Assembly (NCBI GenBank): GCA_019347575.1
Contig: JAHWKY010000002.1
Location: 62,001 to 126,000 of the forward strand
Length of the DNA: 64,000 nt
Source of the DNA: Actinomycetota bacterium
Lineage (GTDB): Bacteria > Actinomycetota > Nitriliruptoria > Nitriliruptorales > Nitriliruptoraceae
Direction: 5' to 3'
Shown: piece after piece, positions 16,979 to 19,479 of the stretch
How the letters are laid out: the number at the start of each line of letters is the position of its first letter
Position numbering within the stretch: the stretch's first letter is position 1
Notes under the pieces: model-generated
Databases searched by the model: none
What the model was told of the DNA's origin: nothing
Seen by the model: the letters and a program-made list of their open reading frames with translations, nothing else
Program-made: the position numbers and the translations under genes

Positions 16979-17614
16979 CTACGCGCCCCGCGTGCGGCGG
17001 CGAGAGGATCTCAGCGGGTCGGGATCCAGACCCTGGAGCCCGTTCCAGGCGAGGTTGACCAGGTGTGCGGCGACCTCGCTCGGCTCCGGCTTGCCGGTCT
17101 CGAGCCACCACTCCCCCACGAGAGCGACCATCCCGACGAGCGCGCGCGCGTACAGCGGCGCCAGCTTGGGGTCGAGGTCGCGCGCCTCGAACTCGGCCGC
17201 GAGGATCGACTGGGCCTGGTCGGCGACATCGTTGAGCAGGCTCGGGAGCGTCCCGGCCGAGGTGCCCACCGGTGCGTCCCGGACGAGGATGCGGAAGCCA
17301 TCCCGGTGTTTGTCGATGTACTCGAGGAAGACGTCCACGCTGCGTTCGACGGCGGCGCGGGGATGTGGGGCGTCGCTGAGCGCATGGACCAGGGCGTCGA
17401 GGAGGCGGTGCACCTCGAGGTCCACCACCACGGCGTACAGGCCGTCCTTGCCCCCGAAGTGCTCGTAGACGACCGGCTTGCTGACCCCGGCCCGGTCGGC
17501 GATCTCCTCGACCGAGGCGGCTTCGAAACCCCGTTCGGCGAACACCTTCCGGCCGACCCCGATGAGTTGCTCCCGCCGCTCCTGGCCCGTCATACGGACC
17601 CGGTTGGCGGTCAC
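16979..17614 (-). CDS. TetR/AcrR family transcriptional regulator of the desaturase operon
   Basis: The product (211 aa from GTG 17614) has the N-terminal TetR helix-turn-helix: LIGVGRKVFAERGFEAASVEEIADRAGVSKPVVYEHFGGK, quoted here in overlapping halves FAERGFEAASVEEIADRAG and VSKPVVYEHFGGKDGLY. The rest is the helical ligand-binding domain. GTG 17614 overlaps the desaturase stop by GTGA, so the gene is translationally coupled downstream of it. A double palindrome in front of the desaturase (18674-18707) is the natural candidate operator. By analogy with lipid regulators of this family, an acyl-CoA ligand is plausible but not shown. Confidence 0.88.
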   Translation of the reverse strand: MTANRVRMTGQERREQLIGVGRKVFAERGFEAASVEEIADRAGVSKPVVYEHFGGKDGLYAVVVDLEVHRLLDALVHALSDAPHPRAAVERSVDVFLEYIDKHRDGFRILVRDAPVGTSAGTLPSLLNDVADQAQSILAAEFEARDLDPKLAPLYARALVGMVALVGEWWLETGKPEPSEVAAHLVNLAWNGLQGLDPDPLRSSRRRTRGA

Positions 17615-18673: not shown

Positions 18674-18707
18674 AACCTACGCCTCCGTAGGTTACGCCAC
18701 CGTAGGT
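18674..18707. promoter_or_regulatory. Double palindromic operator, probable TetR binding site
   Basis: Two copies of the 12-bp palindrome TACGCC(T/A)CCGTA lie at 18678-18689 and 18693-18704, with a period of 15 bp. The first extends to AACCTACG (18674-18681) paired with CGTAGGTT (18686-18693). The site ends about 23 bp upstream of the desaturase start and 17 bp upstream of azlC, so a bound regulator could affect both promoters. Assignment to the coupled TetR protein is inference. Confidence 0.72.
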
Positions 18708-18723
18708 CGAAAGCGAATCGAGC

Positions 18724-19479
18724 GTGCGGACACCGGACCGGCAGACTCCCGCCGTGACCCACGACCGTGAGCCAGCCACGTCGGTCCGCACGTCCGCTGA
18801 GGCGGCACGTGCGGGGGCGGTGGACGTCACCCCGATCCTGATCGGGGTGATCCCCTTCGGGCTGCTGGCCGGCGTGACCGCCACCGACATCGGACTCGGC
18901 GTCCTCGAAGCCAGCGGCTTCTCGGTCATCGTCTTCGCCGGCGCCGCACAGCTGGCAGCGATCGACCTCCTCGGCCGCGACGCGGCGGTGCCGATCGTGA
19001 TCGCGACCGCCCTGATCATCAACCTCCGGATGCTGATGTACGGGGCATCGCTCGCGCCCTACCTCGCGCACGAACCACGGTGGCGCCGTGCCGGCGTGGC
19101 CTACGTGCTCACCGACCAGTCCTACGCGCTGGCAGTGGTGCGTTACGACGCGGGCGAGCCGCTGCGCACACGCATCGCCTACTACCTCGGGGTGGCCGTC
19201 CCCATGTGGCTGTCGTGGCAAGCGGCGACGCTGGTCGGGGCGGCGGCGGGCAACACCATCCCCGAGTCGGTACCGCTGTCGTTCGCCATCCCGCTGATGT
19301 TCCTGGCGCTGCTGCAACCCGCGGTGAAGGACCCAGCGACGACGTGGGCGGCAGTCGTCGCCGGAACGGTGGCCGTGGTCGCCGCACCGCTTCCCGCCAA
19401 CCTCGGTCTGCCGCTGGCTGCGGTCAGCGGCATCGTCGCCGGGACCACGATCAGCTCGCGCCGGCGAGGCACGGCGTGA
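18724..19479 (+). CDS. azlC: AzlC-family branched-chain amino-acid exporter, large subunit
   Basis: This hydrophobic 251-residue protein has the AzlC signature near the first helix (DVTPILIGVIPFGLLAGVTA) and GFSVIVFAGAAQLAAIDLL, with about seven membrane helices. AzlC works with the small protein AzlD to export branched-chain amino acids and analogues; AzlD follows immediately with a GTGA overlap. GTG 18724 is taken as start; GTG 18754 in frame would remove ten non-conserved residues and is also possible. It is divergent from the desaturase across the double operator. Confidence 0.87.
   Translation: MRTPDRQTPAVTHDREPATSVRTSAEAARAGAVDVTPILIGVIPFGLLAGVTATDIGLGVLEASGFSVIVFAGAAQLAAIDLLGRDAAVPIVIATALIINLRMLMYGASLAPYLAHEPRWRRAGVAYVLTDQSYALAVVRYDAGEPLRTRIAYYLGVAVPMWLSWQAATLVGAAAGNTIPESVPLSFAIPLMFLALLQPAVKDPATTWAAVVAGTVAVVAAPLPANLGLPLAAVSGIVAGTTISSRRRGTA

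Follow-up and report, generated by a model that had tools for sequence, protein, structure and literature searches.

The 64-kb window, by which we mean the whole stretch of 64,000 nucleotides analyzed here, contains a membrane desaturase gene followed by a TetR-family regulator gene, and a divergently oriented azlC gene on the other side of a short intergenic region. The features at this locus are as follows:

16979..17614, minus strand: TetR-family regulator, 211 aa, FasR-like; its start codon GTG overlaps the desaturase stop codon
17611..18651, minus strand: 346-aa membrane desaturase of fatty acids, in family PF00487 and resembling the acyl-CoA desaturase SCD1; its gene is the proposed target
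18674-18707: whole tandem operator, with the pattern TACGN4CGTAN3TACGN4CGTA at 18678-18704 plus flanks
18674-18693: palindrome 1, AACCTACGCCTCCGTAGGTT, a perfect 8-bp inverted repeat with a 4-bp centre (AACCTACG-N4-CGTAGGTT), conserved in relatives; one TetR dimer is proposed to bind here
18678-18689: core of palindrome 1, TACGCCTCCGTA
18693-18704: core of palindrome 2, TACGCCACCGTA (TACG-N4-CGTA), offset by 15 bp from core 1; a second dimer is proposed to bind here
18724..19479, plus strand: azlC (PF03591), divergent neighbour; probably no dedicated target

Read directly, the stretch 18674-18708 is AACCTACGCCTCCGTAGGTTACGCCACCGTAGGTC. The initial annotation had described two TACG-N4-CGTA palindromes in the divergent region with starts 15 bp apart, the first of them extended to 20 bp, and both statements are borne out by the letters, the extended palindrome being a perfect inverted repeat at 18674-18693. 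The palindromes had also been called overlapping, which holds for their extended arms but not for the 12-bp cores (18678-18689 and 18693-18704). With the 15-bp offset of the core starts goes a 15-bp direct repeat (18678-18692 and 18693-18707, 93% identical), whose unit at palindrome 2 extends to 18707. The observation of two palindromes repeated at 15 bp is thus confirmed. The operator is 22 bp upstream of the desaturase start codon (GTG 18651) and 16 bp from that of azlC (GTG 18724; an in-frame GTG at 18754 is the other candidate), and occupies about half of the 72-bp gap between the two genes.

The closest solved relatives of the desaturase are the acyl-CoA desaturases 4ymk and 4zyo. The TetR gene lies directly downstream of it, in the same order as in Streptomyces loci, and the TetR start codon (GTG, 17614-17612) and the desaturase stop codon (17613-17611) share the letters GTGA; given this overlap, the earlier description of the two genes as translationally coupled is fair. 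The regulator carries the Pfam domains TetR_N and TetR_C_46. Its top family model is FasR, but the score of 113.1 bits is below the family cut-off of 330, and a strict FasR identity was therefore rejected. A fold search with its AlphaFold2 model (mean pLDDT 85.0, pTM 0.72, 37 sequences) returned FasR as the best match with 34% identity, the five highest PDB matches all being FasR entries; Bacillus FadR and DesT (3lsj, 22% identity) were also among the matches. The recognition helix, as deduced from the TetR fold, reads SKPVVYEHF compared to SKPVLYQHF in FasR. The FasR-like fold of the model suggests that the protein may sense acyl-CoA. A second FasR-like TetR (34% identity) is encoded in the same genome at L072:3284-3907, beside an acyl-CoA-dehydrogenase-like ORF; it scores 72.9 bits with the FasR model.

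Within the window, TACGN4CGTA occurs twice, both times in the operator, compared to 0.19 expected occurrences. The exact tandem pattern is present as a single copy in the 4.9-Mb genome. No second place has two or fewer mismatches to it, and 15 places have three (reversed control: 4 places in total); the six of these 15 that we inspected by eye, without domain scans, had no recognisable desaturase downstream. Allowing up to three mismatches, there is just one convincing site in this genome. The lone palindrome CTACGN4CGTAG is not enriched genome-wide (3 copies versus 8 for the reversed pattern), so that the argument is built on the tandem arrangement and its conservation, not on a single palindrome.

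To assess conservation, the window's genome and 80 related ones (81 in total) were searched with the TetR. A match at 1e-15 was obtained in 59 of them, and 53 were counted as orthologue-bearing (best E 3.4e-53 or better; the remaining six matches were at 7.5e-28 or worse). Thirty loci including our own were fetched, with a desaturase beside the TetR gene in 22. A TetR profile run against named genomes gave 574 confirmed places; among the best 80, mostly from Streptomyces, a desaturase was found within the fetched DNA in 71 and an exact tandem site in 60. The TetR of the window is 60-66% identical to the TetR proteins of these best 80 loci, which do not include S. coelicolor. There were then 93 loci combining a TetR orthologue with a nearby SCD1-like membrane desaturase (the window included, many from the best 80 of 574). 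Each was scored by its best tandem match out of 16 in the roughly 300 bp preceding the aligned start, with the reversed pattern as a control. The score was 16 in 71 loci, 15 in 14, 14 in two, 13 in two and lower in four; the reversed pattern reached 8-11 in all 93. The operator is thus kept, with at least 14/16, upstream of 87 of the 93 orthologous desaturase-TetR pairs, which is what the initial annotation had named as a check on its idea. The four low scorers are L152 (12), L029 (11), L170 (10) and L203 (7), of which L170 has an exact site further upstream and L203 offered just 208 bases. Across the 81 genomes the exact tandem site is present in 41, and the reversed pattern in none. Conservation extends over a large number of genera, the spacers having diverged and the geometry being constant, and because of it the observation stands above chance.

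The presence of the site follows that of the TetR orthologue. Among the window's genome and its relatives, 37 have both the orthologue and the site, 16 the orthologue alone, 4 the site alone and 24 neither, that is, the site is found in 37 of 53 genomes with the orthologue versus 4 of 28 without it (p = 1.8e-6); in one of the four site-only genomes, G033, a TetR fragment is located at a contig edge. A second set comprised 150 genomes of the order around locus L193, where the orthologue was defined by a best E of 5.3e-34 or better and the 36 orthologue-less genomes had matches at 7.5e-28 or worse, one having no match at all. The exact tandem site was present in 88 of the 114 orthologue-bearing genomes of this order and in 0 of the 36 others (Fisher 3.5e-18, a value to be taken as indicative only, given the non-independence of related genomes and the incompleteness of some of them). 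The reversed pattern matched in seven of the 150 genomes, and in one of eight genomes of a further set. The orthologue-bearing genomes lacking an exact site (26 of 114 and 16 of 53) include some with near-exact copies and some without any copy nearby. Where no desaturase was present in the fetched DNA (eight TetR genes), the best score was only 11-12/16, compared to 10-11 for the reversed control, and six loci (L315-L319, L323) in which about 1.5-6 kb separate the two genes have the operator at the desaturase. The operator tracks the target gene rather than the regulator gene. The co-occurrence, 88 of 114 versus none of 36, speaks for the initial proposal that the TetR is the likely binder and the desaturase the probable target.

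The geometry of the site is strict. In 110 loci picked by their TetR, the N4 spacer occurred 167 times and any other spacer from 0 to 12 at most 17 times, and all of the 72 close palindrome pairs were 15 bp apart. When all loci were pooled, including many identified with the pattern, the corresponding numbers were 308 for N4 and at most 13 for any other spacer, with 142 of 149 distinct pairs 15 bp apart and four of the seven off-pitch pairs at 30 bp. Four distinct triple arrays (L036, L214, L220 and L313) keep the 15-bp pitch, which fits one stacked dimer per palindrome. The earlier suggestion of two dimers is thus favored by the fixed pitch and the triple arrays, the dimers themselves being deduced from this geometry. 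The central CGTA-N3-TACG was considered as a dimer site and set aside, since the triple arrays repeat the entire 15-bp unit; the sequence separates this reading from that of TACG-N4-CGTA incompletely.

In 68 loci among the best 80 of 574, a conserved TTG precedes the first core by 28 to 26 bp, and TGCCATACT runs directly into the first palindrome. These elements look like a -35 box and an extended -10 box abutting the operator, an arrangement that favors repression. The promoter boxes are less clear in the relatives of the window. A simple scan for promoters in the 72-bp gap found none, and in hand scoring the best candidate reached 6/12 in each direction, so that the window's promoter is not confidently placed.

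Taken together, the conservation, the co-occurrence with the orthologue and the nature of the downstream genes (see below) indicate that this is very probably a desaturase operator, and for this part of the interpretation the sequence comparisons provide strong support. We consider it likely (probability of about 0.84) that the two palindromes form a double operator through which the TetR of the desaturase operon represses the desaturase and its own gene. We infer that the TetR is the binder, that it represses, that it binds as two dimers and that its ligand is an acyl-CoA. In the proposed mechanism, each TACG-N4-CGTA palindrome would be bound by one TetR dimer, and the two dimers, 15 bp or about 1.4 helical turns apart, would cover the desaturase promoter. 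Desaturase and TetR genes would be co-transcribed and co-repressed. If it works like FasR, MadR and DesT, the repressor probably loses its hold when saturated long-chain acyl-CoA is bound, and the desaturase would then be produced when acyl chains are over-saturated.

DesT from Pseudomonas aeruginosa, a TetR-fold protein that responds to acyl-CoA, represses an acyl-CoA desaturase together with its reductase. Its structure with palmitoyl-CoA (3lsj) is among the fold matches of our TetR (22% identity), but DesT is distant in sequence and comes from another phylum. The closest known system is SCO3129/SCO3128. The Streptomyces loci studied here show the desaturase gene, then the TetR gene, and the tandem operator in front. 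SCO3129, a TetR of S. coelicolor, controls SCO3128, SCO3130 and itself, and of this regulation autoregulation alone is fully conserved in C. glutamicum, according to an excerpt of PMC8303971. SCO3129 itself is presumably the orthologue of the window's TetR, and the window locus is SCO3129-like. A difference is the reported role, as SCO3128-3130 are mentioned in osmotic stress (PMC7169405, excerpt). SCO3128 is a putative fatty-acid desaturase whose mutants make more than 100-fold more actinorhodin in Streptomyces (PMC6585502, excerpt), and the circuit may therefore bear on antibiotic yield. Among the matches listed in a literature search for the operator sequence or Cg1098, nothing looked relevant by its title, which does not imply that the operator is unpublished.

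Among solved structures, FasR (Rv3208) of Mycobacterium tuberculosis comes nearest in both sequence and fold; it has a near-identical recognition helix, its crystal DNA contains the letters CGTA and TACG (PMC7382501, excerpt), and its ligand is long-chain acyl-CoA (PMC7382501, excerpt; PMC7652896 also deals with FasR). FasR differs in activating its target fas-acpS via three inverted repeats (PMC7382501, excerpt), whereas the sites found here precede mostly desaturase genes. The mycobacterial MadR (Rv0472c) is a TetR repressor of the desaturase genes desA1 and desA2 that is relieved by saturated acyl-CoA, with the published motif TCTGTGxxxxxxxGT (PMC8872791, excerpt). This different motif reached at best 5/8 on either strand in the 72-bp intergenic region and was not enriched in the 64-kb window. 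MadR is similar in that soluble PF03405 desaturases, to which DesA1 and DesA2 presumably belong, are also among the apparent targets of the operator found here.

The initial annotation had linked membrane fluidity to the promoter of an amino-acid exporter. A two-sided operator, through which the TetR would also set azlC and tie membrane fluidity to branched-chain amino-acid export, is unlikely. Branched-chain amino acids and branched fatty acids have common precursors, and a protein bound 16 bp from the azlC start, on a site filling about half of the 72-bp gap, would probably hinder transcription in both directions. However, azlC adjoins the operator in none of 18 related desaturase-TetR loci, and the proposed link is not supported. 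In 15 of the 18 the divergent neighbour is an inositol-monophosphatase gene; azlC and azlD are near the operator in one genome (G017), behind that gene. For most loci the check extended roughly 3 kb past the operator, and for one (L257) about 0.6 kb. Among the best 80 of the 574 TetR-profile loci, no azlC-like match was present at E 1e-6. There is no inositol monophosphatase gene within the 64-kb window, and since the adjacency of azlC is not kept in relatives, the juxtaposition looks like a lineage-specific loss or rearrangement. Judged from these comparisons, azlC is most likely a bystander; an accidental local effect of an operator so close to its start codon may occur, and any regulation of azlC would be a side effect.

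We regard it as equally improbable that the TetR activates the desaturase. DesT is a repressor; in loci from the best 80 of 574, the proposed extended -10 box runs right up to the operator, and a protein bound 22 bp from the start codon would block the polymerase. MadR is a repressor as well (PMC8872791, excerpt), although FasR, the nearest solved relative, activates fas-acpS (PMC7382501, excerpt).

Still less probable is that a different regulator, such as a paralogue of the FasR type, acts on the operator, with the neighbouring TetR merely co-traveling. The recognition helix of FasR is very similar and the FasR crystal DNA contains CGTACGTAG (PMC7382501, excerpt), the window's genome has TetR paralogues including the further FasR-like one (72.9 bits versus 113.1 for the TetR of the operon), and the co-occurrence would be compatible with a regulator that constantly travels along. 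Against this, none of the 36 genomes without the orthologue has an exact site, although 35 of them keep distant TetR relatives. The soluble desaturases behave in the same way: PF03405 was sought in 30 genomes of the order (15 with and 15 without the orthologue) and was present in 18; its upstream DNA scored 14-16/16 in eight of nine genomes with the orthologue, the ninth case being a weak family match with a score of 11, and 9-10/16 in all nine genomes without it, which lack the operator at these genes. That the palindromes arose by chance or form a stem-loop without a regulatory role is next to impossible, for although the lone CTACGN4CGTAG is not enriched in the genome, the conservation of the site across numerous genera, at constant geometry and with spacers that have diverged, refutes it.

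The downstream genes extend the double-operator reading to a broader set of apparent targets. We counted 163 distinct exact sites over all loci, including those chosen by their TetR and taking a triple array as two. Of these, 101 precede a PF00487 desaturase like that of the window, 42 a PF03405 desaturase, six a reductase, five a FabK/FabX-like protein, one a dehydrogenase E1 component and eight other sequences. Five of the latter eight precede a second PF00487-type desaturase beside a reductase gene in four genomes (three scanned, one assigned by eye), which brings the total before membrane or soluble desaturases to 148 of 163; the last three (L043, L064 and L067) are exact sites without an assigned downstream gene. 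Seventy pattern-found loci, namely those listed from three genome sets (30, 10 and 30, with two places counted twice), gave 31 sites before a window-like desaturase, 31 before a PF03405 desaturase, four before a FabK/FabX-like gene, two before a reductase, one before a dehydrogenase E1 component and one unassigned (L043).

PF03405 is present in 38 of the 81 genomes comprising the window's own and its relatives. Of 14 such genes without an exact site that were fetched, one was cut off; the remaining 13 scored 15/16 in six cases, 14, 13 and 11 in one case each and 10 in four. The latter include the gene of the window's own genome (on C12), whose upstream score of 10/16 equals background. By this motif, the soluble desaturase appears to be a target in many relatives and not in the genome of the window.

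Based on these patterns, it is rather probable that one TetR lineage and one operator grammar form an ancient regulon for making double bonds across Actinomycetota, in which the enzyme is swapped while regulator and operator stay. Its grammar would be two or three consecutive TACGN4CGTA units at a strict 15-bp pitch, and its members would be membrane acyl-CoA desaturases, soluble acyl-ACP desaturases, the FabK/FabX-like oxidoreductase and a flavin/2Fe-2S reductase with a second membrane desaturase. This wider regulon across different desaturation enzymes is more interesting and less certain than the window locus. It would provide a testable rule for the setting of membrane fluidity in actinobacteria, and the operator, whose fixed 15-bp pitch can be read from sequence alone, a ready marker for their unsaturated-fatty-acid genes, including that of the 490-aa FabK/FabX-like protein.

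This protein, encoded by a gene for about 490 aa, is preceded by a double or triple operator in L036, L045, L046 and L047. It matches PF03060 (three of four scanned) and gave weak, piecemeal PDB matches to FabK and to a 2-nitropropane dioxygenase group, which we take to be Helicobacter FabX. Of the genomes with such a site, G038, G043 and G062 have no PF03405 match and G061 has one. The protein is a candidate unsaturated-fatty-acid enzyme.

Domain searches assigned FAD-binding and 2Fe-2S domains to the reductase and placed its NAD domain narrowly under the cut-off. The operator precedes this flavin/2Fe-2S reductase gene in L214 (340-1560) and in L311-L314, and in L311-L314 a second operator is located before the adjoining membrane desaturase gene; this reductase-desaturase pair resembles Rv3230c-DesA3. 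In a Georgenia genome, a tandem operator (L213:1501-1527) precedes the gene for a dehydrogenase E1 component (PF00676), an enzyme that might supply primers for branched-chain fatty acids. In Streptomyces coeruleorubidus, the operator before the soluble PF03405 desaturase is triple (L220:1501-1542), and the one before the membrane desaturase is double.
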